Source: Pyropia yezoensis
Taxonomy: Eukaryota; Rhodophyta; Bangiophyceae; Bangiales; Bangiaceae
Assembly (NCBI GenBank): GCA_009829735.1
Contig: CM020618.1
Span: forward strand, 7,008,627-7,072,626
Length of the DNA: 64,000 nucleotides
Direction of reading: 5' to 3'
Within the stretch, counting starts at the first letter, position 1; every line of letters starts with the position of its first letter. The notes beneath the pieces are model-generated. The model was not told the origin of the DNA and ran no database searches. It saw only the letters and a list, made by a program, of their open reading frames with translations. A program made the translations under genes and the position numbers. Positions 1,883-47,694 of the stretch are shown here, piece after piece.

Positions 1883-3730
1883 CTAGTACCTACGGAAACG
1901 ACTGTCGGGACGAGAAGACTCTTCCTCGTCCATGTCGTCTCGACCACGGACACGAGAACCTTCCTGGGTCCCCGTCCAGGCACGTCGCGCGGCCGCCTCG
2001 GCGTTACCCAGCTCCGTACCAAGGTCCCCACGGATCCCGTTACGGTCAACCAGGTTCAATAGCCCTTTGTAGTCTGGGTTACTGGAGCCCCCTTGAGCAC
2101 GGGTCCACTCGGCTACACGGGCCCCAAGGTTAAAAGTCGTGTGAAGGGAAGCCGACAACAGGGGCCCGACATGAGCGTTCGCAAGGACGTCCGCGGGACC
2201 CCCAAAGAAACTGCGTAGCCCAAGAACCGCCGTGGTAGTCAGGTTTCCCTCCAGGTCCATAAGTTCCGCGTCGGGCACGTCCCCATGGTCCAGAAGGTTA
2301 GCCACGTACACGGTACGACCCCCGGGAGGGTTGGAACGATGACCAGCTGACCCCGATGACCGAGCGCCCGGGAACCCAGAGGGACCTGCGGGAACCACCT
2401 CGTCCGACTGATCAGCGTTCTCGTCCTGGGCCCCGAGGATCTCACGCCCTTCCAGTACGTCCGATGAGTACGGTAGGTCCAGTGGGGCCAGGTCCTCGTC
2501 TACCAGGGCCGCCCATACCCCGTCCCGACTCTCGAACCGAACCCGAACGAAGGAACCGCGATCCTTGCGACGTTTCCCGGAAGCGAGGAGACGCGCACGG
2601 AGCCCCGCGGCGGAAGCCACTTGGTCACTAAGGGTCAGAAGGGCGTCCAGGTCCCGCACGGCGGCCTCGTCCACGCCACCGGGACCCTGACAGATGGTAC
2701 GGGTACCGACACGCTGGATCCACGTACGCAGGGGCCGAGAGAAGAGGCACAGGTAACCTTCCAGACGGGCGAACTCAAGCAGGTACACAGCACAGTTGGT
2801 AGCCCATTCCGTTCGAAACACGTACCAGGCGAACGCGTCCGACAAACGAAGAAGTTCCGTGAAGTAACACTGGACCGCAGGAAGTTCCACAAGGGCCCCG
2901 TATGGTAGTTCCACGTTCTCGAACCAGTGCGGAACCCGAACGTAATGGAGCCCACGGGTAGTCGCGGAACAACTGGGGAACTCTTGTTGATGCCACCCGA
3001 CCAGGAACCGACTCTTGTCACGATGGTGCCGACTGAACACCAGGCTAGGTAGGGTCACTTGGTACCCGGGACGGTTCAGGTACGGGGGAGACCCGATCAG
3101 GTAACAGGGTGAAGGTGCGGCAGGTAGGGGTCCTTGGAGGAGTTCCGTGCGGACCGTCTTGAACCGTTCGACGTACCCGACCTCGTCCGCGTGCCGTACA
3201 ACCGTGATCGACAGGGAACGGTCCGCAAGGACAGGGATCCGAGCACCCGGCACTACCGCCATCTGCTTGCGAAACGAGTTACCCGGACAGCTCCCGTCCA
3301 CGGCTCGAAGGATCCCATGGGCCCGGGTACCAGTAACCCAACCTCGCGCCTCCTCCCGACGCCACGCCGTAACCGTCTCGGATCCGAAGTCCTCAGGAAC
3401 CACGCCAACTATGGCCGCGTACGACTGGCCCGCCCCGGTTTCCTCTTGATCCATTGGGAGAACGTCTGGCCCAGTAACGGGGCCACCTTGAGCATCGCGT
3501 ACACCTTGCCCAGCTGGTACCCCGGAACCAGGAGCGGGTACACCTTGCCCAGCTCGGTCACCTTGTCGCTCAGGGGCCCCAGGGCCCGCGCCAGCAGGCG
3601 AACCCGCCGCGGCGCTGCCGGTTACCATAGGGGCCAGGGTGGAGGGGAACGTGGGGGTACGGGTGATAGGGTACGGGGGCACGGAGACGGAGAAGGGGAA
3701 CGAGGAAACGGGGGAGAACGAGGTGACCAC
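1883..3730 (-). CDS. Element A antisense ORF, new conserved family
   Basis: A 615-codon frame opposite to pol. The first 34 codons read through a purine-rich tract, so the ATG at 3628 is the more likely start (about 582 residues). The N-terminal ~120 residues are Gly/Pro/Ala-rich. A central domain of about 250 residues contains PPYLNRPGYQV, VQCYFTELLRLSD and, about 37 residues later, EGYLCLFSRPLRTWI. An acidic linker leads to a helical C-terminal part (VYVANLLDHGD onward) and an Arg-rich tail ending RFRRY. It aligns by eye with antisense ORFs in elements B (5117-7595) and C (25494-27458) in domain order and spacing. No known family or catalytic motif is recognised. The position between pol and the 3' LTR suggests an accessory element protein with its own promoter. 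Confidence 0.65.
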   Translation of the reverse strand: MVTSFSPVSSFPFSVSVPPYPITRTPTFPSTLAPMVTGSAAAGSPAGAGPGAPERQGDRAGQGVPAPGSGVPAGQGVRDAQGGPVTGPDVLPMDQEETGAGQSYAAIVGVVPEDFGSETVTAWRREEARGWVTGTRAHGILRAVDGSCPGNSFRKQMAVVPGARIPVLADRSLSITVVRHADEVGYVERFKTVRTELLQGPLPAAPSPCYLIGSPPYLNRPGYQVTLPSLVFSRHHRDKSRFLVGWHQQEFPSCSATTRGLHYVRVPHWFENVELPYGALVELPAVQCYFTELLRLSDAFAWYVFRTEWATNCAVYLLEFARLEGYLCLFSRPLRTWIQRVGTRTICQGPGGVDEAAVRDLDALLTLSDQVASAAGLRARLLASGKRRKDRGSFVRVRFESRDGVWAALVDEDLAPLDLPYSSDVLEGREILGAQDENADQSDEVVPAGPSGFPGARSSGSAGHRSNPPGGRTVYVANLLDHGDVPDAELMDLEGNLTTTAVLGLRSFFGGPADVLANAHVGPLLSASLHTTFNLGARVAEWTRAQGGSSNPDYKGLLNLVDRNGIRGDLGTELGNAEAAARRAWTGTQEGSRVRGRDDMDEEESSRPDSRFRRY

Positions 3731-4666
3731 GGGAAGCGCCGCGGGGACGATGGTACAATGGGACCCGGGTGCTGGGGACGAGGGAACCCGTGAGGGTGCT
3801 CTTATCCACTGGCCCCCTGCGTTCCAAATGGTACCGGGGCTGCGCCCACGTTCCGCTGGCCCCCGCCTGTGCCCCTACACCGCGTCACCCCCCCTGGCGT
3901 ACGGCGCCACATGGGGAGGGCGACGGGGAGGAGGAATGCAGGTGGGCAGCCGGCGCGGGCTGCGCCACACCCCCTTTGGTTCCCCTGCGCGTGGCCTGCA
4001 CCTCTCCTGTACCCGCCCGTGGCCAGTCTGAACGGGTTCCCCTGGCACGAGACATTTGTCGGGGGGCCCCTGTTGACAGACACTCGCCCCACAACCCGTT
4101 CGTTGTGGCCCTGTTGTAACCCTGTCAGAAGTTCCCCAGTCCCTTTCCTCGGTTTCCTTGTTGGCCGGCGGGACGCTCGGCCCTAGTGAGGGGGCCATGT
4201 GGCGTTCTGAGCCCCTGGGACCGTTGGAACCCGGGAGACTGACTTGGGACCCGGCCGGCAGCGTTACGTGGAACCACGCGCTGGCCGAGGATCCCTGCAT
4301 CGGTGGTCCGGGGCAGTGGCGACACGCCCGGTGCCCTGATTGGTCACCCGGAGCGGTGGACTTGCCGGGTTGGGGCATACTGACCTTCGCGTTATTTGTC
4401 TGATTTTTCGCATTTGTTTCCCTTGCGTGATTTCGTGTCTTTCCCCTTTTTCCCACTGGGTTTTTTTTGGGGATTGACATTTGTGTGTGGGGGGATTTCG
4501 CTTGCTTTTTGTGTGTTGGCCCGGTGAGCGGCCGGTGCCTTGCTGGCACTTGGCCCGCTGGGGGCGCCCTCTGGGGGCCTCGCTCAGGGCCCCTGGAGGG
4601 GCCAGGGGGGGAGGTTCTTGAGGGGTGCTCCGGGGTTCTCCCCGGGGCCATCTTGTAAAATCAACA
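3731..4666 (+). repeat. Probable 3' LTR region of element A
   Basis: Non-coding. The right half (about 4380-4520) is T-rich on the + strand, as in the LTRs of elements D and E. The right end TCAACA (4661-4666) is taken as the LTR end. The start is uncertain: TGTTGA at 4071 is the exact inverse of the end (596 bp LTR), while TGACCA near 3721 directly follows a purine-rich tract. Only one copy is in the window, so the boundary cannot be proved by comparison. Confidence 0.45.
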
Positions 4667-5116
4667 GTACTTTGGGTTCCTTCTCCCTCGGGCTTTTGTC
4701 CTGTTTACCTTTGCCTCTTATCGTGGCGGGCGAGTGGATCAGCAAGGGCTCTTACCTGTTCCTTCCTGGGCTTCGGACTGTGGTCTCTGAGTGTGTGGTT
4801 GTGGCTTCTGGGTCCGGGAATCTGGGTTCCATTACGCTACAGGCCGCTGCCCGCTTTTCGCGGGGGCGCTTTCGGGGTGACCCGTTCGTGGTTGCCCCGT
4901 ACGGGGGTGTGGCCCAGCCCGCCCAGGTGCCTGGGTGGAGCGCGTTCATAGCTCCGTGGGGCGCGGGTCGACCCGCGCACTTGCATCGCTTCTCGTGGCC
5001 TTTTGTGGTCATAAACGCGGGTGCCCGCGCTTCCCTGGCTCGTCCTGGTGGTCCCACCGTACCGGGTCGTAGCCGTCGACGGCTTGTGGGCGCGGGGGAC
5101 GGTGCCACCCGTTACC
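4667..5116 (+). other. Leader of the B antisense ORF
   Basis: No gene. It starts with a pyrimidine-rich stretch (about 4679-4700) that may be B's polypurine tract on the minus strand. It contains a perfect 18-bp palindrome at 4961-4978 centred on GGGTCGACCC. The segment probably supplies the promoter and 5' untranslated region of the antisense gene, but no core promoter motif is clear. Confidence 0.4.
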
Positions 5117-7595
5117 ATGTCCTATCCCCAGGTGCTTGGGAAGGAGGAAGACCTCCTGATCGGGGAGGAGATGGAGGACGACGCGCCTGTCGGTCCTGCC
5201 GCCGCGCGTTACGGGGCGAGCTCGTCGGAAGACGACGAGCCTGTGGCGTCCGTCCGTGTGTCGGCCGGAGGACTGTCGTCCGTGTGCAGCGGCACGAAGG
5301 TGCCGTCGGTCGGGGGTCAACCCGGCGGTCAACCGCGCGTGTCTGCTTTTACCCCCTCTCTGCCGGCTGCCCGGATGGAGCCTGGTGCCGGTGCCGGCTC
5401 GCCGCAGCTACCCCAAGATGGCCCGCCTTACGGCGGAAGTGGCGATTCCCGGCCGACTCCGGCTGGGCAAGGTGGTCCGGGTGTCCGGACGGTGATTCCT
5501 CAAGGCGATCCCGACGTTGACGTGGGTGGTGGTGGCGGTGCGAAACCCGGTGCGGCGAGTCAAGACGGTGCGGGTGTCCGCACGGCCGGTGCTTCGGCTC
5601 CGGAGGCTGTCCAAGTACCTTCCCTTTCCGAGGCGGGGGCGACGTCGACGGGTGGTGCCGGCGCCGGTACCCTACCCGCGGTGCCGCGGGCGTCGAGCGG
5701 TCAAGACGCTCCTTCCCCCATGGCGGTTGACACCGGGAGCTTCTCCGGGCGGGTGCCCGCCCTACTTCTTCCTCCTCGTCCCTGTGCCCCGGCGCCGGTG
5801 CACCTACCCGTTGGGCGGCCATGTCGGCCTGGTCGGTGGCGGCGTCGCCTCTGCGGGTGGCGGTACCGCTTCCGCGCGGGGCGGTGCCGCCTCTGCGGTG
5901 GGACACCCCCCGTTGTCGTTCTCCGAGCTGGTGGCTCGGGTGCGTAGCCTGACGGTGCAAGAAGCCATGGACTCAGGCGGTCGGATGCGGGTGGACTTCC
6001 ACCCGCCGGGCCGTCGTGGAGGTACCTCCCGTCCGGTTTCGTTGGACCCCTGTTGGGAGCGGGAGCTGGCTCGGATGGTTGCCCAGCCTGACGCGGTTCG
6101 CGTCGAGCATCATTGGGTACTCAGCCAGCCGGACGACCGGCATGCTCAACTCTGGCGCGCCCGGGTCGGGCGGCCTGAGGCTACTCTGCACCCCGCTTTT
6201 GGGGTGTGCGACTTGGTTGCCCCCGCGCTGCCGCGGGAGGTGGATTACCCTGCGGGTGCCCGCGGGGTGGCTGCTACCCAGACCCCTGTGGCCTTCGGGC
6301 AGCGTGTGCCTGGTACCAACCGGTATCCCGGGTTGGACTACTACCCGGGGGATCCCCCGTATCTGTGGCTGACGCCGCCCTTTCCGACCATGGGTGGCTT
6401 GAAGTCAGCTTCCAGCTGGCGTCGAAACCATGGTGTCATGGCGGACCCATTCCACACGGATATAACGTGCGCGTTGCAGACCGGTAACGGTCGTGCTCCC
6501 GTGTACACTTTGTTGCGCCCGCATGGGTGGCAAGAAGGGTGGGAGCCCGCCCCGGCTTTCCGGTTTGACACCGGTCCTTGCCTGCGCTACTTCGGCAGTG
6601 TGCTGGCCGCTCGGCCCACGCATGTGCTGCAGGGTGTCTTCACCCTCGAGGTTACCCTCGGGCAGGTCTCTTCCTTCCTGTTGTCGGCCCGCCGACAGGG
6701 TCGGCTTTTCCATCTTCCGACGGGTGTCCGTCGGCACCTTGGGGAGCTAGGCGTTACCGCCATCGCTACTGGGACGGGGTTAACCCGTGAGCTGACTGCG
6801 CTCGTGGCCGTTCACGAAGCCGTGAACTGGTCGGCGGTGGCGACCTTGCCGCCGTTCCGCGACGCGCAACCGGGAACGCTCCCGCTGCCTCGTCACTCGC
6901 TACGTATCCAGCATGTTATCTCGGGTGAGGATGGATACCAGGGGTGGGTATCCACCGAGTCGGTACCAGGCCTGGGTATTCCCGTGGTTCTGCCCGACCC
7001 TCTCCAGGTGGGAACCCCCTGGTTCGGTAACCCGACTCCTATGGGGACGGGTCGCCGTCGCCGTGAGTGGGACTCTACTGGTGGGGGCCGCGAGACGTAT
7101 CGTCATCGTGGGGAGTTCCACAGGGTTCCCGGTGGGCGTTCTGCCCAGGAGTCTGGTCCTCCTTCACGGTCGTACCGTGCTCCTTACCAGCTACCGCCGT
7201 CTCCGGCGGTGGCGGTGTCCACTCCTCCGGCTGTAGCTCCGGTTCCTCCGGTGGCATCGCCGGCTCCCGTCATGCCCGACGGGGGCCCTCGCTTGTGGTA
7301 TGACGGCGTTAACGCCCTTCTCTCTCGTGAGTTGACGGAGGCGCCTCCGGTTAGCTGGGGGGACATCCCCTCAGCTGCTGCGCTGGTCGGTACCGCGTGT
7401 TGCCTCGGTTGGGTGCTCAACCGCCTACAGATGGCTTTGGATGCTGTGGAGGCTGGTGACAGCACTCTGGTGCATCTTAGCGCTGAGGTAGCTCAAGCGC
7501 TCAACCGGCGTGAGATAGCCGACCGTTGGAGTACGGAAGTGTACGTGACGACGCGTGACTGGCCCCCTTCTGCTGGCGGGGGTAACCCCTTCTGA
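5117..7595 (+). CDS. Element B antisense ORF region, same family as in A and C
   Basis: A coding region of about 2.5 kb opposite to B's gag and pol. The start is taken at the ATG at 5117 (MSYPQVLG), followed by an acidic, Pro/Gly-rich low-complexity N-terminus. The central domain includes PPYLWLTPPFP, LRYFGSVLAARPTH (about 6580-6625) and, about 35 residues later, RQGRLFHLPTGVRRHL. After an Arg-rich linker comes a helical C-terminal domain (WYDGVNALLSREL to ALNRREIADRWS). These blocks match the antisense product of element C in order and spacing, most clearly FGSVxxxxPTH and RxGxLxHLP. The function is unknown. As part of an old element it is treated as a fossil; it is not fully intact. Confidence 0.6.
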
Positions 7596-7975
7596 TGGTT
7601 GTGGGAGTGAGAGTGAGGGATCCGGTGACCCTTATGGTGGCCGGGTATTAGTGAGTATAAACTCATCCCCTTCTGGCTCAGTGGTGCCTTGCCTCCCGTC
7701 CAACTTCTTCCGGTTGGTTCATGCTTGGGGAGGTCATCCTCCCTCACTATGTGTCTTGGCTTGGGGAGGTCATCCTCCCTTGTAAGCCGCCTAGTTACTT
7801 CGATATTATCGGAGTTAGCCTTTACCTTTAAGTTAACTTATTAAGGTTCAGGTTTTACTTAGTTACCTAAGCTTGGCTGGACTTAGAAACCTAAGTCTGC
7901 CGCAACCATGTCACACCCTACTTAGTAGGACTAAGCCCCACCCCCCTACATCCGAAGTCGGATTCGGTTCGGTTG
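7596..7975. other. Convergent gap between B antisense ORF and B pol
   Basis: No gene. This is the most AT-rich part of element B. It holds a repeated hairpin (7723-7744 and 7759-7780) and small CTTAG/CTAAG stem-loops between 7850 and 7930, including the hairpin GACTTAGAAACCTAAGTC (7879-7896). A C-rich run near 7933 is purine-rich on the coding strand of B. It likely carries the 3' ends of two convergent transcripts. Confidence 0.45.
7723..7780. repeat. Directly repeated 22-bp hairpin
   Basis: The same 22 bp occur at 7723-7744 and 7759-7780. Each copy contains GGGAGG/CCTCCC arms around the loop TCAT, so each can fold back on either strand. The position just past the antisense stop and before the pol stop suggests a role in 3' end formation for both transcripts. 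That role is inferred. Confidence 0.7.
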
Positions 7976-10900
7976 TTACAGGAGGCGGCGTCGCCTCATG
8001 AAAGGCATGAGTAGTTGGCGGGGTATATTCGCCGCCTGTTCCCAGGTGGGTGAGTCGTAACCGACCCACATTACCTTGACGTACCAGGGTTCTGGTAGAT
8101 CTGGGTCGGTATGTCCGACGATGCTCTCCACCTGGTATGGGATTCCATCCGGTCCCACCGGGTCATCCGACCGGTGGGTGGTAAGCGCTTCATGTAGCAA
8201 CCCAGCCGGTACCGGCTGAGGATGTTCTGGCTTCGGCGCTGGTGTGACATCACTCACACTGATGCGTTGGATCTCCGTATCGGAGTGTAGAATAACAGAG
8301 TGGTCATCTCTGTGGAGAATCTGGTACGGTCCCTTGACCGGTTGCATGAGCTTGTTCCCCCGGAACTTCTGGTGTCTGATGTAGACCCAGTCACCTGTCA
8401 TCAGGGTAGCGTTGCGCACCCGTAGCCGGGCGTCGAAGTTCTTCTTGTATCGAAGTTGTGTACGGTCAAGGGCCCCCTTGAGTTTCGGTGTCATCCACGA
8501 TAGCTTGGCCAACCAAGCTAGGTGTATACGTTCGGCCGGTCGGCCCTTCGGTGTATCATACCGAGTGCACCTGCCTGGTGGCAGCGTCAGGTTACCGACG
8601 CCTAGTGGCATGACCCACTCTAGAGGGGCTATGTTCGTGCTCCGATGTGGCCTGGCATTGTATGCCAGGGTGAGTACGGACAGGAGCCTGTCCCAAGTGT
8701 TCGTGTTCTCGGCCACGTAGCACTGTAGCATCTTGACGATGGTGCGGTTGAACCGCTCCACCTGCCCGTTGGTTTGCGGGTGGAAGTCGGATGCCCGACG
8801 TGGTTCGATGCCGAACATGCCCAGGACCTTAGTGCAGAATGCTGACGTAAGGTTTGCTCCGTTATCAGAGAGGAGTTGCTTCATTACTCCATACGCACTG
8901 ATCCAGTGGTCAACCACTGCGTTCATGATCGTGTATGCAGTATCATCCGGGATAGCTGCCGCTCGTGACAGCTTAGTGAATCGGTCAGACATGACCAGGA
9001 TGTACCTGTTCCCTTCTTCCGCTACTGAAAGTGGCCCGAGTATGTCGATAGCGACTTGCTCGTTGGGCCCATCGGGTGGGAATAGCTTCATGGCAGACGC
9101 CTGCCTATGTAGACTCATGCGGTTACGTGCACAGGGGTGGCATCCCCTTACGTGGTCGACCACGTCGACGGCCATTGCTGGCCAGTAGAAGAACCTTCGC
9201 ATTGCTGCGAACATGCGTGAACCCCCCGGGTGTCCGGCTGTAGGGTTCTCGTGTTCTCGTTCCATGACGGCTTGCCGTAAGGACGCAGGAACCACGACTT
9301 GATGTCGTCCATCGGCGCGTGCCCGCCGGTATATGAGTCCGTCTTCATTCTCGGAGAAGATGCCGGCCGTACCGGCCAGGAGGTTAGCACGATGACGTCT
9401 ACAGTCATCGTCATTGGCTTGTGCCTCGCGGAAGTCCGCGAGAGTCAGTGGGCATGCTCGGTGCGCCATGGTATGGTCAACCATAACCTTGGGTGGCGTT
9501 ACCCACCATGCAGACCGGTACCACCGGGATGTCTTCGTCCACCGGGCGGGTATCCCCGCTTGGGGTGTCGAGTCGAGACAACGCGTCTCCGAGGTGGTGG
9601 GTTGACCCAGCCTTATACACGGTGCGGTAGTCGTGCTCGGCCATCTTCAGCCTCCATCGGGCTAGCCTCCCATGGCTATCGGAATCCTTGTCACCAAGGT
9701 TGAGGAGCCATCGTAGGGGTTCGTGGTCGGACCTCACGATGAACCTGGAGCCCTCCAGGTATGGACGGAGCAGTTGCACTGCCCATATAACCCCGAGGCA
9801 CTCACGCTCGGTGGCACTATAGTTACGTTCAGCCGGGTTGAGTGTCCGGCTGAAGTACCCTACCGGACGTAGGTCCGGGATAACGTCATCGGTACCGATC
9901 AACGTCTCTCCCTGTAACAGGGTGCATCCCAATTGTGTATCGCACGCATCGACATCGATGACGAAGGTACCCCGTCTGTGCGGTATCGCAAGGACGGGTG
10001 GGGACAGTAGGGCTCGCTTCAGCGACTCGAATGCCTCCTCTTCGCTAGGCGAAGGGGGTTGGAGTACCTTGGGCAAGGTACTGCTCGTAAGAACCGTTAA
10101 CGGTTTAGCTATCCGAGCGAAGTCCTTGACGAACCGTCGGTATACGTTGCACATTCCCAGGAAGCTCTTGAGCTGCGTCTGGGTGTTAGGGAACCGGGCA
10201 TCCCGGAGTGCCCGGGTACTGGCTTCGAGTACCCCTAGTTTACCAGGGGTTATCTGGTGGCCCAGATACTCGACCGTCTGTTGGAAGAAGGCGCACTTCT
10301 TCAGACGCAGGGTTACCCCGGCGTTCCTCAAGAGGGTGAGTACCTCGTCAACATGTTGCACATGGTCATCCATGTTACGCGAGAAGACGATGACGTCATC
10401 GAGGTACACTAGGCAGTTACGACACTTCACCCCCGACAGTATAATGTCGATAGCCCGCTGGAATGTAGCGGGGGCGTTGGACAATCCGAAGGGCATCCTT
10501 AGGAACTCGTACACTCCACTGTGACAGACGAACGCCGTCTTGGGGATATCCTCGTCCGCCACCGGGATCTGCCAGTATCCGGCATTGCAGTCGATGGTGG
10601 TAAACACCGTAGCTTCCTCCAGGGAGTCGATGCATTCATCCATCCTTGGTAAAGGGTATGCGTCTTTCTTGGTAACCAAGTTGAGGCGTCGATAATCGAT
10701 GCAAAACCGAGGGGTTTGATCCTTCTTCGGTACGATAACGACTGGGGCACCCCACTCCGACATCGAAGGTCGTATCACCTTCGCTTCGCTCATCCTCTTC
10801 ACCTCTCCATCAACGATCTCTCGTTGCATAGGTCCCGCTCGGTGCGGCTGTGACCGGGCAGGTCGTGCGCCTGGTACCAGGTCTATACGATGTTGGGTTG

Positions 10901-12143
10901 CCCCAATGGTACCCAAGGCCCCGCCTGTCCACATGACGTCATGCTTTCTTAGCATCCGTCGTACCCCTTCGGCTACCGAAGGGGGAAGGTGGTCGAGGTC
11001 AGCCTCGGCCAGGGCCTTCAGTGCTTCTTGGTCCTTCGGCGGAGTATCCGCCGGTAATGATGGTCGACTAGGCTTCCCGACGTCGGGATCGTCCTGCTCG
11101 GGTGTGTCGGCGACCGCCAGCACTTCAAGTGGTTCCGCTTGGCCCCCCTCGTCTGGGGTAAGGATGTCTCCTTCGTACAGCTCGGCGATTCCGAGGATAG
11201 TTCCCTTCGGGAGGGTGACTGCCTTACGGCGATAGTTCGCCATCACTAGGAGGGACGACCCTCCTGCTGGGAGGTCTATGAGACCGTTGGTCATGGTCAA
11301 CCCATGGCGCTTGTACGTCCGCAGGTTGGACAGGACTCTGCAGATGCCTGCAAGGTCACAGTTAACCGGGAGGACTGTCTCCGACAACGGCTCAAAGCGA
11401 GCTCGCTTGGCCAACCGAAGTGTCTTCGGCTCGACGCTTGCGTACACCTCAGCCACGTTAACGTGGCTCCCTTGTAGCGTCAGGTCCCTGACGATAGCCG
11501 TATGTCCTCGCTTCGTCCCGTCGGCTTCTTGAAGCTCGACGGTCCTCCGGCCTGGCCGGATTGCATCCACGTGAACGTTGATGAAGGTGCATCCCCGTAT
11601 GCAGGGCACTGATAGGGTCTCACACACCAGGAAGTCAACTTCCGTAGTGAGCTCTCCGATGGTGACCTGCAGCGACATCGCTGCGGTCGTACCAATGAGA
11701 CGCCCATTCGCATCCTTGATCGAGGGTCCCCGAGCAGCTCGGACTCGCGGGAGCCACTTGTCCGGGAGGGTATCCTTCCGGACAAGGTTGGGTCCAGCCC
11801 CTGTATCCAGTACAGGGTAATACGATCGGGTCGACTGGGGGTCAACCCCCAGTGTGGCTGATACCTTGAAGTTCTCCAAGGTAAACAGCACATGTCCTAC
11901 ACCGATATCCGGTGTAGCTCGGGCATCCTGCACAGGGCCCTTGTCTGGTTCCATGTGACGGGGCTTCCCGTCCTCTCCTCCCATTATCGGGGGATTCTCA
12001 TCATTCCCCTGACTCCGTGTCGTCGGGGCCGGAAGGTGTACCCGGGGATTGATGCGGCGCCGGCTCAAACGCGCTCGCCGTGGGGCTTTCCCCGCGGTAC
12101 TCCGGGGTGGCTTGCTTGGGTAACCCCAGCGCCCCCCGGTCAT
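7976..12143 (-). CDS. Element B pol region: protease, RT, RNase H, integrase, chromodomain
   Basis: Read on the minus strand. The first domain is a retropepsin (VLDTGAGPNLVRKDTLP, about 11820-11765). Reverse transcriptase follows, with FCIDYRRLN and the active-site YLDD in CLVYLDDVIVFS (about 10420-10385). Then come RNase H (FVIDVDACDTQLGC, about 9965), the integrase zinc module, and the integrase core (AIDILGPLSV, LSDNGANLTS, QTNGQVERFNRT). A C-terminal chromodomain ends the region (VESIVGHTD, VKVMWVGYDSPTWE, about 8130-8040). The domain order is that of Ty3/gypsy. The region is not fully intact. It is followed downstream by the convergent antisense ORF. Confidence 0.92.
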
Positions 12144-12151
12144 CCTTCCTC

Positions 12152-14341
12152 TTACTCGTTTCCCGCCCTTGGTAGGGTGCTGTCCGCCGGGACATCCGGC
12201 TGAGGAGGTGCCTCCTCGACGGCCAGTACTCCGCCTGGAGCTGGCTGCCTACCCGGTGCGGGTCCGGGTGCTCTGGCGGGATACCCCCCGGTGGATGCCT
12301 TGCGTTGCGCCGCTGCCCGCCGAGACTCCTCGGGGATGAGTGGGCAGGAATACACCCAGTGCTGGGGATCCCCACACAACATACATCCGGACGTGCCGGT
12401 CCCCCCTTGAGTTCGCATCGGGGTGGCCCCGTAGCTGCGGTTGCCTCCCTCGGGCGCCCGAGTGCCTGCTCCCTGGTAGGCCTTGGGTCCTTGGGTCAAC
12501 CGGAACATGGACTCCCCCAACCGGTTGGGTCGGCCCGCAATCTGCGGAGGTGCCTCAGTGCGCACCGCCCATGTTGGCAAGGGTTGGTGAGGGTTACCCG
12601 TCTCCGGGGAGTACCCCGTAGTCCGTACGTACGGGACGCGACGTCCCGTGCCCTCGCTGACCTGGAACTGGGTCCCCGCCGGAGCGATGTACGCTACCGT
12701 ACCTTGCTCATCAATCACCGGCGTAGCCGGTAACAGCAGGTAGCCCTGCTGGTCAACAAGTGGTTCCTCCTCGCCCGTGGGGGCGTACTCGGTAGCCAAC
12801 GGTACCGGTGCGGCCTTCCGTTCCATCTTGTCTTGCCTCGGTATCGGGGTAAGATTGAGCTTGCTCCCCTCACCCTTGGGCTTTGAGGCAAGAGCACAGT
12901 CCGGGTGAAGCACCCGGTAGGCGTCCCCCAGGGACTTGCACATATGCATCAGTCGACTGAAGTTCGTCCGTGCCGTGTTGGCGCCCCGTGCGGATATCCG
13001 CACGTAGTTGGGTACTCCTGCGAACAGGATGGCCCGTAGCTCCCCTTCTCCGAGGAGTTTCCCCAGCTATTAGTCGAGCTCTTGAATCCGTCGTCCGAAC
13101 ATCTCCTCATCCTCCCAGCTCTGGGCGGTGGCAGTGCGCAGGGCCCGGTAGTGGTCCTCGCACTTGTCCTCACTGAGGTAACTGCTCAGCAGCTCCTTGA
13201 GAATCCCACGGTAATCCATGGGGGTGGCGGCAACCCTCATTCCCGGCATCGGGGATGCCTGGCAAAGGATGCCTCGCACCCGCTCATCAACAAAGAACGG
13301 GAGGATCTCCAGGGCCAGCCCCTCGTTGACGAGGGCCTTGTCCGCGGCTGCCTTGAAGCTAGTCAAGAAGCCGATGACTGCCAACGGGCGTCCGTTGGGC
13401 CCCCCGAACATAGGGACTCCCTTCATAAGGGTCTGCATGGAGCGGATCGCCCGATGCGACGTATTACGCATCGATTCCGATACGGTGGTAGAGCGGTCCT
13501 CCAAACGATAACGTTCCGGAGTAAGAACCGCCCTGAAGACCTCGTTGACGATCTCCGTGTCAGCGTCCTGGATATCCAGTCGCTTAGCCAGTTGATGAGC
13601 AAACTCATCGGACTCCACCCGCTTCAGTAGGCTCGCAGTTACCTGCGCGGTCATAGCTTCCACCACTGAAGATGGTACTTCAGGCGTCGGCACCTCGGGA
13701 GCCCGAGTTGCCTGGCCTCGTTCGTCGTGGGGATACTGTGAGAGGGTACCCCCTCCCCCAATAACCGACTCTCCACCGGCGTAAGTATCCGCCGGGTCGT
13801 GTCCGCGGAGTCCGCTTCGGGTGCTCCGAGCGTATCGCTCCGTGTGACTCCGTTCCAACTCTGCCGACGAGTCGGATCCATACCCAATTGTGTCCGGGGG
13901 TTGTCCGGGAGTTGCTGAGCCGGGGTCGACCCCGGTGGACTCCGAAAGTAGTCCGGCCGGTTCAAACCGTACCGGTGTGGGAGGAACACGACGGGGTCCC
14001 GTCGTGTGGCGTGTTGACATCATCACTGCCATCGCGTCCTCCGTCCGCTCTTGACGAGCGTCGAGTCCGGAAAACCGGGCCTCGATGCGGGCCAATGATG
14101 CCATCAGGGAATCCCCTGGTGAAGTAGGCGGCGGAGTGAGGTCGGTCGATGACAGTTGAGGCGGGCCCCCGCCTGCTGCCGTCCGAGCCGTGCCAAACGT
14201 CGATCCGGCACCGGAGAGCATCGGCGTCTCAATGTTGTCGATCGGGTTCCCGATCACGGCTCCCGTAGTTACCTCCGGAGTCGGCGTCGACGCCGATCCG
14301 TCATCTTGAACGTTCCCCGTCTCTTGGGTAGACATAGTCAC
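12152..14341 (-). CDS. Element B gag region
   Basis: The start is at the ATG at 14341 (MTMSTQETG), about 200 bp downstream of the primer-binding site. The N-terminal third is low-complexity and Pro/Thr/Ser/Gly-rich. A helical middle section (from about 13700) matches the gag-like helical region of elements C and E in character. A CCHC-type zinc knuckle (CMLCGDPQHWVYSC, about 12390-12345) lies near the C-terminus. Gag forms the particle and packages the RNA. The protein ends AGNE then stop, directly over the heptamer GGGAAAC, as in element C. The region is not fully intact. Confidence 0.82.
12158..12164 (-). promoter_or_regulatory. Candidate -1 recoding heptamer at B gag end
   Basis: On the minus strand the sequence is GGGAAAC, in the phase G GGA AAC relative to gag and two codons before the gag stop. 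The pol frame is the -1 frame here. GGGAAAC is a known retroviral slippery sequence, and the same word sits in the same phase in element C (31534-31540). Confidence 0.55.
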
Positions 14342-14540
14342 ACTCAGTCAACCGACGTAACAATCACCACGAATAAGAGAGCGAGGGGGTAGATTGGGGA
14401 GAGTAACAGTAGGTCACAGTCAAAGGTAAAAACTCAACACAATCGAACAGGTCGCAACACCACGAGTACAAGAAAAGGACCGGATCCCTATCCGTGTGCC
14501 AGGGCCGAAGACGGCGTCACCACAAGGGTGACGGAAACCC

Positions 14541-14560
14541 GTCCCCTGCTGCTCCACCAA
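14541..14560 (-). other. Primer-binding site of element B
   Basis: On the minus strand TGGTGGAGCAGCAGGGGA directly follows the 5' LTR. It begins TGG, as expected for pairing with a tRNA 3' CCA end. The same 18 bases are found next to the LTRs of elements C and D. Confidence 0.85.
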
Positions 14561-14923
14561 TTTAGCACCATAGGGATCCGCGGCACGTCCACTCTCAGGG
14601 AACACTCACCAGGGGGGATCGGCACCAACGTCACCGGGAGGCCAAGGTTGCTGTCCTTGGAGCGCAAGCCACGGGACCAAGATGGGAGCCCAAATGGGAG
14701 GGGTTTGTTGTTCTACCTTGGCCGGCGGTGGATTCGCCGCCGGCCCCCTCGTTATAAACCCTCGGAGACACTACTAACTACCTTCCACCCCAAGATGCAA
14801 GTCCCTCTGGTCATACGTAACGTATAGATACCGTGACCAGTACGGACTATCAAATTAAAAGCCAAGAATTAGAAGTAGCCCTCCTAATACTAGGTTCACA
14901 ATACGGCCGACCATATTGCTACA
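14561..14923 (-). repeat. 5' LTR of element B
   Basis: A 363-bp LTR, defined by alignment with the solo LTR at 16040-16406. On its own strand it starts TGTAGCAATATGG. Its other end is slightly degenerate relative to the TTGCTACA end of the solo copy. It abuts the primer-binding site on one side and the pol relic at 14924 on the other. Confidence 0.9.
14720..14758 (-). promoter_or_regulatory. B LTR core promoter: TATA box followed by GC hairpin
   Basis: On the minus strand TTTATAA (14758-14752) is followed seven bases later by a perfect 9-bp stem, GGCCGGCGG/CCGCCGGCC, with an 8-nt loop (14745-14720). The stem is conserved in the diverged solo LTR (16198-16223), while the TATA box there is degenerate. 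The hairpin would cover the expected start of transcription. Confidence 0.6.
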
Positions 14924-15388
14924 GAAGAACTTGAGGGCCATCCGTGAGGCCCAGTACCCCCGGGCCCAGACCCAGATGAGGAGCTTCCTCGGGATGTGTA
15001 ACGTGTACGGACGTTTCACCAAGGGCTTCGCCAAGGTGGCGAAGCCGCTGAATGAGCTAGTTAGCTCGACGCTACCGAAGAACCTGCCTCCCCCAAGTCG
15101 GGTGGAGCGGGAATCCTTTGAGACTCTTCGGGACCTACTGCTGAAGCCCCCTATCCTGGCTATTTCCAGGTTGGGAGGCCACTACATCCTGGATGTGGAT
15201 GCTAGCTATGACCAACTTGGTTGCGTGTTGCTTCAGCAGCAGCCGGACAAGGAGTACTTTCCGGTAGGATACTTCAGCAAGAGGCTGAGCTCGGCTGAGA
15301 AGAACTCTGGAGTCACCCAGTCGGAAGGACTCGCAGTGGTGTGGGCGGTCACGTCACTTCGTCACTACCTAGAGGGTAAGAAGTTTTA
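14924..15388 (+). pseudogene. Relic of a Ty3/gypsy pol (end of RT to RNase H), element C family
   Basis: About 155 residues closely match the pol of element C, from the RT thumb and connection (KNLRAIREAQYPR, SFLGMCNVY) into RNase H (YILDVDASYDQLGCVLLQQ). It starts exactly at the end of element B's LTR and stops abruptly at about 15388. It is therefore the target into which B inserted, and its upstream half should lie on the far side of B. Fossil fragment. Confidence 0.88.
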
Positions 15389-16039
15389 GGAGGATTAGGT
15401 ACCCCGTTGGTGTGGGTTTACGCCCAGACAACCACCACAGGTTTGGTCGCGAGAGAGTGTCCTGGAGATGCGTCTGGGTGAAGCCACGTCGGCGCACGTG
15501 GATTGGACCGAGCCACCTGTGGCTCCTCCCACTGCTCTTCTCTCGCGCAAGGTGGTACACATAAGCACTTGGATGCCCCATGTCCTCGCACTGTCTTCTT
15601 CGCACCGTTCTTCAACTGATAGTATTGGAGAGATATTTATATAGTAAGCAAGATGGGGCAACACCTCCTCTCTGTCTTGGTGCGCCTCATGACTGGCCTC
15701 CTCCCGAGCCGCGTCGGGCAGGGGGCAGTAGGTGCGAATTCGGGGGCGGAAAAGTAGCGCTCGGAGCATCGGGATGCGGGTGCTGCTCTGGCCGTCCCCC
15801 GTAGGGCGCTTCGCTAATGCGACCCCAGGGGTGGCCGCTGAGAAGGCGCCGTGCCCAGCACGTGACGGTTTTGTTCTCGTGCAGGTCATGGACGCGTAGG
15901 TATGCCACACCTAACACAGCAGCGTCCAAGGAAACAAATACCGTATGCGAAAAAGGTCTTATGAGAGGAAGCTTCATCTATCCTCAGAGACGCAGCTCTC
16001 ATTGGCCTGTATGCACATCGGCGGGGCATATCAGCACAA
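15389..16039. other. Unassigned segment between pol relic and solo LTR
   Basis: No coding sequence or repeat that I recognise. The overlapping frames on both strands have no motif or family resemblance. Confidence 0.5.
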
Positions 16040-16406
16040 TGTAGCAACATAGGGATCCGTTATCAGTCCACTCTCAGGGAACACTCGCCACGGGGGATCG
16101 GCAGCGAAGTCACCGGGAGGCGAAGATTGCTGTCCTTGGAGCGCTAGCCGCGGGACCAAGATGGAGCCCAAATGGGAGAGGTTTGTTGTTTAACCATGGC
16201 CGGCGGTGGATTCGCCGCCGGCCCCCTCGTAATAAGACCGCGGAGACACCCCTAACTACCCTCCACCCCAAGATGCAAGTCCCTCTGGTCATACGTAGCT
16301 CGTAGATACCGTGACCAAAGCGAACTTCCAACCTGACAGTTAAGGATTAGCAGTGGAAGTAGTGCCCCTAAATTAGGGTCGCAATACGGTCATCCATATT
16401 GCTACA
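16040..16406 (-). repeat. Solo LTR, element B family
   Basis: 367 bp with perfect inverted ends (TGTAGCAA and TTGCTACA). It is flanked by the perfect 5-bp target duplication CACAA (16035-16039 and 16407-16411). It aligns along its length with the B 5' LTR at roughly 85-88% identity by eye. It formed by recombination between the two LTRs of a complete insertion. Confidence 0.95.
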
Positions 16407-22560: not shown

Positions 22561-22569
22561 TACCAGCCT

Positions 22570-22860
22570 CACAACCCTGGACGGGGTGCCGCCGCCTCTG
22601 CTTCTGCCGCCCCCACCGCTGCTTCTGCCGCCGCCACCGCTGCTTCTGCCGCCGCCATCGCTGCAGCTGTCGCCGCCGCCGTCGCCGCTGCCACGGCCGC
22701 CGCCGCCACGTCTCCTGCCGCCCCCGCTGCCACTGCTCTTGCCGCCGCCGACGCCGTCGCGGCTGCCGCCGCCGCTGCTGCCGCCACCGTCGCTGCTGCC
22801 GCCGCCGCCGCCACCGTCGCCGGCTCCCCCAGTCCCCACCCCTACCCCTCCCCGCCCTCC
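22570..22860. repeat. (GCC/GCT)n simple-sequence tract
   Basis: Imperfect tandem triplets such as GCCGCC and GCTTCTGCC, with an inner period of about 24 bp near 22600-22660. It is open in most frames, giving polyproline/polyleucine on + and Gly/Ser or Ala runs on -. Coding status cannot be judged from openness. Confidence 0.8.
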
Positions 22861-24067
22861 TGGACCGCCCATCCACGCCCCAGCCCTGCCTGTCGGCGCC
22901 TGTGCGGCCACGCTGCCGCCGCTGCCGCGGCCGGCGACCCCACCGCCGCCCTTGCCGCCATTCACGCGCGTTGGGCCGTGGCTAGTGTCTCCCGTTCGCC
23001 CAACCCGCCCCCCCCCCCTCCCCGCGCCCGGATTCTCCTTGCAACAACCGCGGCTTCTTTCCCCCTGCGGGTGGCCGGCGGGCCGCGCGGTCGTCACTTC
23101 CGCTTTCCGCGTCGGGCGGGCGTCGTCAGTGACGGACAAGCTGCCCGCTTGCGGCGTCCGTGGCTTGCGCGGCGTCGTCGGCACGGACGAGACGCGGAGA
23201 GGGCCGCCCCCGTCGACGATGGGGCGATCCCCGCCGCTGCCGCCTGGCGGAGGGGGCGCTTTCGCTTGCGGTGGCGCCCCCCGACGGCAGCGCCGGTCCC
23301 CGCCACACACCGAGCCACCGCCGGCAGTGCGCCGTCGGCACGCGCCCCGGCGGTCGGGGGCGGTCTGCAAAGGCGGCATGCCGTTGACAGGCGGGCCCCC
23401 CGCGGCAGGGGCCGCCGCCCGCCACGCGCCACGTGGTGCTCCCGCGGTGGTGGGCAGGGTTGATATATTTTGCGAAAGCATCCATCGTTAGTAAAATCAT
23501 GCAATAATTATTGAAAACGTTTTTGATAGTTATCGCCCAGGAGTCACGTGTTAGGATGACAGCAATGAATTAACCACGTCGTGCTCAGCACGAGCCGCCT
23601 AACGAGCTGCGGACACGGCTTTCGGAAAGGGCGTAGAGCCTACATTGGGCCGCGTAGTACGCAGGCGGCGGAGAACGTGCCGCGTAGGGCGGCCGCACCC
23701 GCCGTGTACAGTACGCCGCGGAGGATGTGAAGTCCTAGTCGGCGTACGTAGCTCCTATCGTCCTCGAGGTGTGGGTCTGGATCTTGGCTGGGCACGCTGC
23801 CGTACTGTCTCGCGGGTACGTATACAGTTCCGAAGACGACGACAGGGTGCGGCACTGCCGCGTGATCAGGCGGTCCGGTCTGGTCTGATGGGCCTCCGAG
23901 CCGACACGTGGTGGAACACGTGGACGTCTGATAATCAATATCGTTCCGGTTCTTCTGACGTTATTTTTTTCTGATAATTTACTCGATAATTTTGACTCAA
24001 TGATTATCGTCTCTCAACCCTGGTGGTGGGCTGACCTGCAGGGCGGACGTCGACGCCGCGGGCGGAC
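22861..24067. other. Host-like DNA, GC-rich then AT-rich
   Basis: Up to about 23480 the sequence remains GC-rich and low-complexity. From 23490 the composition drops, with an AT-rich stretch at 23930-24010 containing GATAATCAAT and AATGATTATC in loose inversion. No gene is identified. Confidence 0.4.
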
Positions 24068-24687
24068 GTGCTGTGCCGCATGGGCGCCCTTCGCCCCGAC
24101 GCGCTCGCCGCGGCGCCCGACTGGGCGACCGTGCTGCCCAAGCATCCGGACGACTCCCCTGCGGAGGTGTCGCGCGCGGAGCTTGTCAAGAGCACCACGG
24201 AAGCTACGCGATGCGGCGTGTATGAGCCAGGACGTGCGCATCCTGCTGGTGTCGCTGGCTGCGTCCTCTGGAATGGGCAAGAGCCACCTGTTGCAGCTGC
24301 TGGCGCGGTGGCGTGCGGGTGGCTTTTCTGAGCGCGCTTTTGATGATCCCGCGCTTACGTCATGGGCTGCCTCGGTGGTCTTCTTTGGCATCAACTTCAA
24401 CAGCGGCTTCCAGGTCACCGAGAGAGAGGTGGGGCTGCTAAGGAAGGGGCTTCTTGATGTCAAGCACCTGACCGCTTTGCGACTCGTTTTCTTGGAGCTG
24501 GCGGCCCTGTCTGAGCCCGTCGAGACGTTCAGGGGCTTCATAAAGTGGATCACGGGGGCACTGTGGTCCGGCAGTCGATCCAAGAAGCTGATTCGGCGCG
24601 AAGCGAGGGCCCTGGTAAAGGCGTGCGCTGGACGCGGGCCCTGCATGCCCTGGTAGTCCTACTCATGTACGATTCAGCCAAGGTCAT
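24068..24687 (+). pseudogene. Fragment of a Crinkler/RHS-type P-loop NTPase
   Basis: The translation contains a Walker A motif, SGMGKSHLLQLL (about 24270-24305). Two strand-like segments follow (SVVFFGINFNSGF, then the FRGFIKWITGALW region), and a hydrophobic stretch just before 24688 matches the Walker B region of the full-length gene at 41882-45292. It resembles that gene in motif order but is clearly a different paralogue. It is incomplete: element C begins at 24688 and the remainder does not reappear beyond C. It is treated as a broken effector-type gene and not examined further. Confidence 0.6.
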
Positions 24688-25156
24688 TGTGGCAAAAACC
24701 ACTTACACACACGGCACTCAAGTTGGGGCGGAGTACAAGGGCTGCCTCCCGTGTCGGGGGAACCGGAAGAAGTGCAAGTCGCACACACTCTATCCCTGCT
24801 GTGGTGCAATCCCCCCACTGACAAACAAGAAGATGGTGTGTGGTCCAACAGTTTCTTGGTCGGGACGGGGACGCAGAGCCAAGCCCCGCTGTCCCCCCCC
24901 TTATCCCCCCAGGGTCCCCTCAGAATCTCGCCGCTCAGAATCTCCCACCCCAGCACCTGCCCACCGGGCCACACGAAAATTCAAGACGATAAATGCAGAA
25001 AACCCTCAAATCCAAGTTGGATTTACTACTAAGCTAACTTTCCCAAACTTAGGGAATATGGACCCAAATGCAGGGGGAGGAACGGATCAGGCTAGTGGCC
25101 TGCCGCCCCTTGCATGGCACGTGTTGCCCCCCTACCTGGGGGTCAATACTGCCACA
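24688..25156 (-). repeat. 3' LTR of element C
   Basis: It aligns with 33593-34062. Ends on its own strand are TGTGGCAG and TTGCCACA. It contains a 17-bp palindrome around TCCAAGTTGGA near 25010-25025 that is also present in the 5' copy. Confidence 0.93.
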
Positions 25157-25493
25157 CTCCCCTCTCCTCAGTTCCGACCGACCCGGTCGGCCCTGTGAGG
25201 GGGTGCGTAAACGCACGTCTCGGCGTTGGGGGCGCGACTTGCTGTCCCCCCTTGAGTACGTAACGCGGATGTGGAGGCGGTCACGTTGACCGCCCCTCTC
25301 CTCAAGCTTGCCCACTCGGCAGCTTGCTCTCCTCAGTTCGCACTTCACCATCACCACCACATCCCCTCACCTTCCCCTGGGCCGCCCCACGCTGGGGAGG
25401 CCACCCGTCCACCCACGATCCGAGTCCCCCTCAACTCGAGGCGGGTCTCGTGCCGCTGTAGCCAGGGCGTCTATCCCCAACTTGGGGAGAGCC
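25157..25493 (-). other. Polypurine tract and leader of the C antisense ORF
   Basis: The first ~18 bases (CTCCCCTCTCCTCAGTTC on +) are purine-rich on the element strand and touch the 3' LTR, as expected for the plus-strand primer. A second CCCTCTCCTCAAG stretch lies near 25294-25308. The remainder is the 5' leader of the antisense gene, with a 15-bp palindrome CCCCAACTTGGGG near 25476. Confidence 0.7.
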
Positions 25494-27458
25494 ATGGCGA
25501 CCCCGGGGGTGGAGACGGGCTCCCTCGATGAACGTATGGAGGACACCTCCTTCGGTGCAGCGCCCGCCGGGACTTCCGGCGGGGGCTCCGCGATCGCTCC
25601 GGGGGATGGGACTCCCGCGTCACCCGGCTTTGGGTTGACGGCGGGATCTCCCCCGGAGGCGGGACAAGTTGTCCCGCGTGAGGCCTTGGGGCGGTGGTTT
25701 TACCCCGCTTGGCCTCTGTATGAGGAGGGGTTGACTGTTCTTCGCTGTGGCCGACTTGGCGCAGCGATTGGTCGGGTATGGGACCGCCTACGGGAGAAGG
25801 ATCCCCGTAGGGTCGGGTTCCCTGCCGGCTCCAGGACGGACCAGTTTGTATTCCTGGACGATGAGGAGGTCGAGGACGTTCAACGGGCCAAGGCCATGGT
25901 GGACCGCGGGGGAGCTATCCCGGGTCCCGGCGCCTTGCCGACCTTTACTTGGGACGCGGTGGCAACTCGTCCCCCGTACTTTCACGAGGCCGATCCGCAC
26001 ACTCATCATTTTGATGTGCGGATGGAGAAGGACTTTCGGCAAGGTCCCTACTTGGTGACCTCGGCTCAACTTGATTTTTCTCAGCAGTCTGCTGCCAGTA
26101 AGGAGCAGTACTATCCGAAGAAGCCCGAGTGGTGGCCTCAAGTTGAGGTCCCCTACGGGTTCCCGGCGTTGTTGCCACGGTTGCTTGACCACTTCGGCTC
26201 CGTCATGTTGACGGCTAGCCCAACCCATCTGGTGTGGGCCATGTTGGCCACCCAGTGGCTCCTCGAGGTCATGTCGACCTGGGTGTCCTGTGTCCAGCGG
26301 CGGGGGATGCTTTGGCATCTTCCCCTCCGGCTTATCCAAGGTTTGGAACAGCTCACCTCTCAGCTAGTTGCTGAGGGGTGCTCATCAGGACAACTCACTC
26401 TACTTGAGGAGATGCTCCGCCTCCACAAGCTTATCGAGTGGGAGAGCATTGAGCACAAGTTGCGCCGCCCCACTCGTGGGCTCAACGACGATGGCGCACT
26501 TCGCCAGTTCGTATGGGTAGCTCGTGAGCTTCACGACGGCCGTGTGGTACTACGAGAGGGGTTGGGCATCGGGGACTACCCGTATGCCCCGGAAGTGTAT
26601 CGCCACACTGCGCCACCCCCGGACAAGGCCATAGTTATGGCCGTGCCCTCACATGATGACCATATGACTCAACCCACTGCGGGGGCCCCGAGTAGGGGTC
26701 GCAGTTACATCCGGGCACCGCCACCTCGGCGTGCCCCTCCACTTCCTCCTGTCCCCTACCAGCCACACGGGGACATCCCGATTAGCGTGGCCGTTGAGTC
26801 GTCCACCCCGGTGTCCCCCAACTTGGGGGCAACCCTCCTGACGGTATACCCCAAGTTGGTGTTACCGCCCGCGCCTCTAACCTCGGAGATGATGATCACC
26901 ACGTTGGTGCGCACCATTTCCTGGTTGGCCGCGTCGACTGCAACCCTTCAAACTTCCGAGACTCCTCAACTTGAGGAGCGCGTTCGTACTGCAGTGGCGA
27001 CCGCGAGCAGCGAGTCGGTGGCGGAGTTTATGACGGCCGAGTTGGCTCTCATCGGGGCTATTATGCCCCAGCCAGCCCCACTTGGGCGTGGCAAACGTCG
27101 GGCGAGCCGGGCATACTCGCCTCCTCGCCGTCGTCGCCGACGCTCGCGGCGCTCTCCCCCCGTGTCGGAAGACGAGTTGACTTACTCCGTCTCGGAGTCC
27201 TCGACTCAGTCAGAGTCGGAGTCGGTCCGGCGTCTGCGTCGCCAACTTGCGCGCAAGACTAAGCAGAAGAGCACCCGCGGTCGTCGCCACTTGCGCGACC
27301 ATGAGTGGCGCGACGGGTCCGACTTGGAGCCGCCGGGCCCTCCGACTGGTGGGGAGCTTATCGCCGTGGGTCTCGCCGCTCGCCTCCACGTGAGGGCGAG
27401 GGCCGTGGGGTTGGAGAGTCTAGCATGCATGCCTAGTTGGCAGCTGCCTTTGTTGTGA
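25494..27458 (+). CDS. Element C antisense ORF, best-preserved member of the new family
   Basis: The frame is open from 25308, but the ATG at 25494 (MATPGVETGSLDER) is preferred because the preceding codons are low-complexity; this gives about 655 residues. The N-terminus is Gly/Pro/Ala-rich. The central domain spans roughly residues 130-370, with PPYFHEADPHTHHFDV, DHFGSVMLTASPTHL (about 232) and RRGMLWHLPLRLIQGL (about 268), and is rich in aromatic residues and helices. A helical C-terminal region (TSEMMITTLVRTISWLAAS) and an Arg/Ser-rich basic segment (SPPRRRRRRSRRSPP) follow; the latter could serve as a nuclear signal or bind nucleic acid. The start lies about 340 bp inside the 3' LTR and the end is 90 bp from the pol stop, tail to tail. 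The function is unknown. Confidence 0.75.
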   Translation: MATPGVETGSLDERMEDTSFGAAPAGTSGGGSAIAPGDGTPASPGFGLTAGSPPEAGQVVPREALGRWFYPAWPLYEEGLTVLRCGRLGAAIGRVWDRLREKDPRRVGFPAGSRTDQFVFLDDEEVEDVQRAKAMVDRGGAIPGPGALPTFTWDAVATRPPYFHEADPHTHHFDVRMEKDFRQGPYLVTSAQLDFSQQSAASKEQYYPKKPEWWPQVEVPYGFPALLPRLLDHFGSVMLTASPTHLVWAMLATQWLLEVMSTWVSCVQRRGMLWHLPLRLIQGLEQLTSQLVAEGCSSGQLTLLEEMLRLHKLIEWESIEHKLRRPTRGLNDDGALRQFVWVARELHDGRVVLREGLGIGDYPYAPEVYRHTAPPPDKAIVMAVPSHDDHMTQPTAGAPSRGRSYIRAPPPRRAPPLPPVPYQPHGDIPISVAVESSTPVSPNLGATLLTVYPKLVLPPAPLTSEMMITTLVRTISWLAASTATLQTSETPQLEERVRTAVATASSESVAEFMTAELALIGAIMPQPAPLGRGKRRASRAYSPPRRRRRRSRRSPPVSEDELTYSVSESSTQSESESVRRLRRQLARKTKQKSTRGRRHLRDHEWRDGSDLEPPGPPTGGELIAVGLAARLHVRARAVGLESLACMPSWQLPLL

Positions 27459-30436: not shown

Positions 30437-30460
30437 CTCGATCCGGTGTTGGGTGGCTCT

Positions 30461-47692: not shown

Positions 47693-47694
47693 TG

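Follow-up and report, generated by a model that had tools for sequence, protein, structure and literature searches.

Background

Antisense genes of plant long terminal repeat (LTR) retrotransposons have been known for a long time, and their function is still unknown according to a review on the subject (PMC7264820). The Retand elements of flowering plants, which belong to the Ty3/gypsy type, carry antisense open reading frames (ORFs) between pol and the 3' LTR; a TRP28 domain (PF04195) was found in 97% of the clusters and DNA binding was predicted (PMC11963269). In Grande of maize (GENE23) and in RIRE2 of rice an antisense gene stands ahead of the 3' LTR, and for GENE23 a promoter of its own and a nuclear product have been reported; outside the plants, the Boty elements of Botrytis and Sclerotinia also have an antisense ORF, situated between pol and the 3' LTR, and the retrovirus HTLV-1 has an antisense gene whose promoter, likewise antisense, is inside the 3' LTR (all PMC7264820). 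Here we describe a family of antisense protein genes in three Ty3/gypsy elements, designated A, B and C, of the red alga Pyropia yezoensis. The elements lie in a stretch of 64,000 nucleotides (assembly GCA_009829735.1, contig CM020618.1, positions 7,008,627 to 7,072,626 of the forward strand), hereafter called the window. LTR retrotransposons are the dominant repeats of this genome, according to PMC7423979.

The place and orientation of the genes are thus as known from Retand, Grande and Boty, whereas the red-algal protein family is apparently new. Grande, RIRE2, Boty and HTLV-1 are likened here by description, not by sequence, and their hosts (higher plants, fungi and animals) belong to lineages different from that of a red alga; with GENE23 and Boty a very distant common origin is conceivable. 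Retand differs in two respects. It is described as a non-chromovirus lineage, whereas element C gives a chromodomain match (E 0.0009) and element B a weak one, both under the Pfam cut-off; and it carries PF04195 (Transposase_28), of which the products of A, B and C have no match at E <= 1. A search of the genome for PF04195 at E <= 10 also gave nothing, which does not prove that the domain is absent: the first pass of this search yielded no candidates and its sole control match, in E. coli, was below the cut-off. The word 'alga' is absent from the review PMC7264820, and no antisense ORF of a red-algal LTR element appeared in the titles and abstract openings found, mostly outside the subscription literature. 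The red-algal case therefore stands apart by an apparently new protein family, by a host lineage far from those named above and by a hint that modules may have been replaced. A separate family that is constrained at the codon level and occupies the same position suggests that a gene at this place has repeatedly been useful to Ty3 elements in general.

Position of the antisense genes

The three genes, with the neighbouring parts of the elements, are located in the window as follows.

1883..3874, minus strand: antisense coding region of element A (open frame of 663 codons at 1886-3874, plus stop)
2..1456, plus strand: end of pol of element A, including part of the integrase, tail to tail with the antisense gene
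4642..4841, plus strand: final part of element A's 3' LTR
5117..7595, plus strand: antisense gene of element B, its coding region divided in this copy between the frames 5015-5947 and 5496-7595
7976..9646, minus strand: integrase part of pol of element B (Pfam Integrase_H2C2 and rve)
9477..12248, minus strand: protease, reverse transcriptase and RNase H part of pol of element B (Pfam RVT_1 and RT_RNaseH; protease match weak)
25494..27458, plus strand: antisense gene of element C (654-codon coding region that starts at the ATG; frame open from 25290)
27548..30460, minus strand: pol of element C (reverse transcriptase, RNase H, integrase and chromodomain by Pfam, the chromodomain below the cut-off)
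24688..25158, no strand assigned: 3' LTR of element C (TGTGGCA...TGCCACA; 94.5% identical to 33593-34064)
33593..34064, no strand assigned: 5' LTR of element C, mate of 24688-25158

The initial annotation had placed an antisense region between the end of pol and the 3' LTR, tail to tail with pol, in all three elements. The orientation holds for each of them and the LTRs have been located for A and C, while the 3' LTR of B was sought within the window and not found. The gene of C lies between the LTRs of the element, before the 3' LTR. The gene of A, an element that passes beyond the left edge of the window, likewise sits inside LTRs and before the 3' LTR. The last 200 bases of A (to 4841) have a 100% identical mate 9435 bases to the left, in the same orientation and outside the window, and in 26 of the 29 other A loci the alignment ends no more than 11 bases from position 4841. 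Our genome searches covered 107,475,971 bases in 11 contigs; a single copy can give several pieces, so that the figures reported throughout are matches listed and neither exact nor complete copy numbers. Among the best 40 of 390 candidate LTR matches of A, 12 same-strand pairs were found 7-20 kb apart. Ten of these pairs enclose matches to the conserved core of the antisense protein (seven spaced 9.4-9.9 kb and three spaced 17.6-18.7 kb), and the remaining two, spaced 8366-8367 bases, enclose none. Moreover, antisense pol is found within 1.5 kb downstream of the gene at 28 of 30 A loci and at 29 of 30 C loci in the genome (57 of 60 taken together).

The limits of two of the genes had to be revised. 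Position 3730, given earlier as the start in A, is not an ATG; the frame extends to 3874, its first ATG is at 3628 (residue 83) and the next one at 3454. The gene of B had been described as one coding region, but is split over two frames in the window copy, where the frame is broken and the N-terminal part of the product is read separately from 5015-5947. An intact form of B does exist, as the match falls within a single open frame of 877 amino acids (aa) in 12 of the 69 rows among the genome matches listed.

Homology of the three products

The relation between the products of A, B and C was established both by direct comparison and by profiles. BLASTP aligned A with C (E 4e-9, 22% identity across 189 aa) and B with C (E 2e-9, 23% identity across 230 aa), and found nothing between A and B (17.3 bits, which is the null level). 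The cores of the A-C and B-C alignments score 43.9-47.0 bits, whereas no shuffled sequence exceeded 29.3 bits when 500 full shuffles and as many local ones were run for each of the six directions. Within a set of 248 stop-free window frames of at least 100 codons, A and B each match only C, and C matches A and B, at E <1e-5. Profile-profile comparison with deeper alignments connected all three pairs in a collinear fashion (A-C 3.9e-9, B-C 1.4e-6, A-B 3.1e-5), so that the similarity predicted by the initial annotation proved significant. The corresponding hhalign scores of 75.4, 58.2 and 48.8 compare with maxima of 30.9, 24.9 and 26.8 among 60+60 column shuffles per pair, and reversed controls were likewise exceeded. 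The conserved parts follow one order: a PPYL motif, HFGSV or YFGSV (replaced by CYFTE in A), Gly-x-Leu-x-His-Leu-Pro, of which A has a degenerate form, and after that a conserved stretch; the motif in C, earlier read as YFGSV, is HFGSV. Judged by these similarities, the three antisense products are one homologous family.

This homology already bears on the most trivial explanation, namely that the frames are long ORFs which arise in GC-rich DNA by chance or as shadows, or that they belong to an unrelated element that happened to insert here. The composition of the window (61% GC, with many long spurious frames) would make such an artefact conceivable. Nevertheless, the strand opposite to the antisense genes has no pol or gag frame that they could shadow, the families are homologous, the position beside pol is constant and, as shown below, the codon constraint is strong. 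We consider an artefact extremely improbable.

Codon constraint

The ratio of nonsynonymous to synonymous substitutions (dN/dS) was determined for 30 A and 30 C loci from the genome, one distant A copy (L062) and two B copies. The most informative comparisons are 15 A pairs with 61-67% protein identity, which gave a dN/dS of 0.25-0.27 at a dS of 0.97-1.18. Values of 0.30-0.55 were obtained for closer A pairs, 0.27-0.32 for the distant copy L062, 0.31-0.47 for three B pairs and 0.12-0.42 for the 10 C pairs that were reported individually. The mean ratio of uncorrected proportions (pn/ps) across all pairs was 0.21 for the 30 C loci and 0.41 for the 30 A loci. Codons that hold a stop were left out; a dS near or above 1 nears saturation, and uncorrected ratios of about 0.4 agree in direction. 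When all six frames were compared, the antisense frame had the lowest ratio in 45 of 45 pairs (38 + 7), and in all pairs but one the second-lowest was the frame of the opposite strand in which the third codon positions coincide. The antisense frames are true protein genes under purifying selection, and the codon-level constraint is clear across copies of A, B and C.

It has been suggested that antisense RNAs of LTR elements have a regulatory role (PMC7264820), and one could thus suppose that the antisense transcript matters as a regulator or as a source of small RNA and that the ORF is incidental. The low dN/dS of the distant A pairs, at a dS of about 1 and lowest of the six frames, makes this explanation quite improbable.

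Distribution in the genome and in a second species

All three genes are members of repeated families. For C, at least 68 copies were scored (from 4777 candidates) and 56 of the 68 rows have no internal stop. For A there are at least 67 matches with 47-100% identity, which fall in groups near 97, 89, 63 and 50%, and for B at least 69 matches with 63-100% identity. In addition, the core of A recognised at least 28 further places at 28-32% identity (E ~1e-12 to 1e-9), with open frames of up to 842 aa. As these lie outside A, B and C by aligned range and identity, they are taken to be a fourth and distant family F, for which C2:8313467-8314243 provides an example.

Homologs were also found in the protein database: at least one for C, at least seven for A and at least seven for B, none of which has been given a functional name. 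For the single match of C it is suspected that low-complexity words crowded the candidate list. Seven of the 15 are annotated as 'hypothetical protein' of P. vietnamensis (order Bangiales); these are 36 and 43% identical to A, or 57-67% identical to B across the region searched. Three of them, P0005, P0013 and P0015 (MMPV_008445, MMPV_008454 and MMPV_008444), comprise A-type and B-type proteins with consecutive or close tags, and the longest contig for each is 488,149 bases. Their genes are probably neighbours, recalling the adjacency of A and B in the window. A further one, P0007 (MMPV_002403), has about 200 extra N-terminal residues, gag-like by eye and without a Pfam match, fused to an A-type antisense protein; the fusion may be an artefact of gene prediction. 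Homologs of the antisense products are thus found at dozens of listed places, in family F and among the proteins of P. vietnamensis, although not all related elements have the gene (see below). Since the gene models of P. yezoensis were predicted on a repeat-masked genome (PMC7423979), standard annotation is likely to miss the antisense gene.

Comparison with known protein families

The initial annotation recognised no family for the products, and the database searches agree with that. The only Pfam match of A, B or C at E <= 1 was SH3_16 on B, which is below the cut-off (E 0.066; 13.4 bits versus 25.8) and was taken as chance. No match to the antisense products was obtained in NCBIfam and PHROGs at E <= 0.1 or, by profile, in the PDB at E <= 1, and a search of viral_contigs found no relative. 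The plant mobile domain PF10536 was considered as an identity and dropped, as it has no match in the genome, a search that does not prove its absence.

The absence of recognisable relatives is relevant to a third explanation, in which a host gene was captured once by an ancestral Ty3 element, spread with its descendants and still acts in its old cellular pathway. Gene transduction does explain additional ORFs of some elements (PMC11963269). However, at the thresholds used neither Pfam (above its cut-off) nor NCBIfam, PHROGs or the PDB gave a match, and the at least 15 database proteins are all without functional name, so that a captured host gene seems to us rather unlikely, though one that evolves rapidly is conceivable.

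The same searches bear on the type of protein encoded. The proposal of an envelope-like protein is not upheld, because the gene is antisense and no clear transmembrane stretch is seen by hydropathy in the products of A, B and C. The peak hydropathy over 19 residues is 1.48 in B, 1.31 in A and 1.25 in C, and a value of 1.65 occurs only ahead of the first Met in the N-terminal frame of B. A gag-like structural protein fares no better for lack of similarity to gag: no Pfam gag or CCHC match was found in A, B and C at E <= 1, and hhalign scores of the products against the gags of B, C and D (a further element of the window, see below) were 17-21, which is the null level. Nor is there, in these two comparisons, a match that would assign the antisense genes to the gag of an unrelated inserted element. 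The C product does have Arg/Ser-rich and basic stretches near its C-terminal end and the A product a basic stretch KRRK; these stretches fit nuclear entry and do not prove it.

Possible function and related elements without the gene

A selected antisense gene of one family is present in several Ty3/gypsy lineages of Pyropia, and we propose, with confidence that goes about halfway, that its product is a trans-acting accessory protein, probably nuclear. The antisense transcript would begin in or near the 3' LTR and be translated. In the accessory protein so made, a low-complexity leader would be followed by a conserved core, which looks helical from the sequence, and a linker, again of low complexity, would lead to a second conserved domain whose tail is charged. 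As suggested for the antisense proteins of HTLV, Grande and Retand, this protein would probably enter the nucleus and influence in trans the transcription of elements, the chromatin or the silencing by the host. The antisense product HBZ of HTLV-1, an animal retrovirus, is a nuclear regulator and a small bZIP protein. Because of the analogy with the nuclear product of GENE23 and with the predicted DNA binding of TRP28, such a factor would most likely be nuclear and regulate either the expression of the elements or their silencing by the host.

Several observations weigh against this proposal. The antisense gene is constrained and yet evolves faster than pol: in distant A pairs (L031-L046, L031-L055, L031-L052 and L042-L046) the dN/dS of the antisense gene is 0.25-0.26 versus 0.07-0.11 for pol, and in three close A pairs 0.39-0.41 versus 0.19-0.21. 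Moreover, a core match is found near only 22 of 40 copies of the A leader and near none of the other 18. For this comparison we used 40 of 43 leader rows, namely those covering all or nearly all of the query, together with the best 40 LTR rows mentioned above, 52 of 149 core rows (147 of 1922 candidates scored) and 30 of 107 core rows (all 115 scored), chosen by eye for being A-like or close to a leader; inspection by eye of both core listings revealed no core rows beside the 18 core-less leaders. Multiplication of the core-less form, which we call A-short, could mean that the antisense protein is merely useful, or that A-short has a different replacement gene. Some lineages can do without the gene in cis. 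Element D is a second case.

47319..55538, plus strand: element D, gag-pol with LTRs of 1300 bases, 99.8% identical; no space for an antisense gene

There is no space in D because the pol frame (to 54258) enters the 3' LTR (which starts at 54239). D is the sister of C, with a bootstrap of 97 on the reverse transcriptase (RT, four taxa) and of 79 on integrase (five taxa), and as A, B and C have homologs of the gene, its loss in D is simpler than a repeated gain. In the same trees the distant Ty3 element E (gag 56495-57397, pol to 60557) is the most distant sequence, and the placement of B in the integrase tree has a bootstrap of only 47. No long antisense frame of E was caught by eye; no close search was made.

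The distance between pol and the leader was measured with the 40 leaders, 29 of 88 pol rows and 22 + 20 core rows, the rows being chosen by eye. With a core it is 2409-2427 bases in 10 of the 13 A copies measured (the others 2491, 2613 and 2970), and without a core 1347-1350 bases in 8 of 11 (the others 1267, 1377 and 1418). Three of the eight copies with the short gap have an open frame of 1438-1442 aa over pol. Such a constant gap at many places suggests that A-short has itself multiplied. An example is C1:5407133-5415699, in which LTR and leader are as in A and the antisense core match is absent. A copy of the short type outside these 11, C3:2462770, gave 1519 bases by hand, counted from a pol match that ends 58 residues early. 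One of the 18 core-less copies, C1:34670220, has pieces of the core at a distance of about 11 kb; this copy was perhaps interrupted. In the A-short stretch L064:1-400 only the final 28 bases match A of the window (3415-3442, 96%), in the register of the leader; there the antisense frame has GAGQSYA, the same residues as A, and continues, free of stops, as an unrelated basic sequence rich in Pro, Thr and Arg. Since one of the sense frames of this GC-rich DNA is equally stop-free, an open antisense frame alone is no proof of a gene in A-short.

The claim that retention in three families implies selection is therefore supported by the codon constraint and qualified by D and the core-less A copies. 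A gene that is absent from D and A-short and selected elsewhere is selected where present and not obligatory in cis. Selection in several lineages combined with absence from multiplying relatives fits a trans-acting accessory factor, and D and A-short, being without the gene, might spread by using the proteins of other elements. More tentatively, one may think of a Ty3 supergroup of the Bangiales with an undescribed antisense protein family that counteracts silencing or regulates transcription in trans and passes on together with the elements. The family would be built of modules: as in A-short, a different antisense frame could take the place of the core, with the leader and the beginning of the gene retained.

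The main rival of a nuclear regulator is a structural role, in which the product would be a second particle protein that assembles with gag or coats nucleic acid and whose dose is set by its own promoter. Its size (~520-720 aa), the conserved core, the basic tail in C and the retention across lineages, like that of a structural gene, are in line with such a role. On the other hand, the products are unlike gag, having neither a zinc knuckle nor a gag match and scoring at the null level against the gags compared above, and related elements exist without the gene, which leaves a structural role doubtful. The A copies with and without the core, together with D beside C, constitute a natural experiment on the role of the antisense gene.

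Other features of the window

The remaining parts of elements B and C are the following.

12152..14347, minus strand: probable gag of element B in two frames, preceding pol (weak zinc knuckle, E 0.2, in 12152-13066)
14560..14923, minus strand: probable 5' LTR of element B (inferred), which ends in TTGCTACA
30464..33072, minus strand: frames of element C that resemble protease and gag, all matches being weak

The gag leader of B (14348-14900) is represented by 40 full-length rows in the genome, the window copy included, and for four of these rows one of the B antisense genes listed is found at a distance of 8.8-9.0 kb. An LTR-like repeat (14558-14923 and 16037-16406, 83% identical) flanks 14923-15385, a C-type pol fragment on the plus strand that is 94% identical to 29319-29781 inverted. 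The repeat pair with the pol fragment is probably the remnant of another element beside B. Between 20600 and 23500, long low-complexity GC-rich frames overlap in several reading frames and are probably not genes. The first 374 bases of the LTR of D (54239-54612) recur with 98% identity at 61424-61797, about 7 kb downstream and beside E; D and E might be relatives, either nested or lying side by side. Finally, the LTR end of A is situated 275 bases ahead of the coding region of B, and an interruption of B by A is put forward as an idea only.

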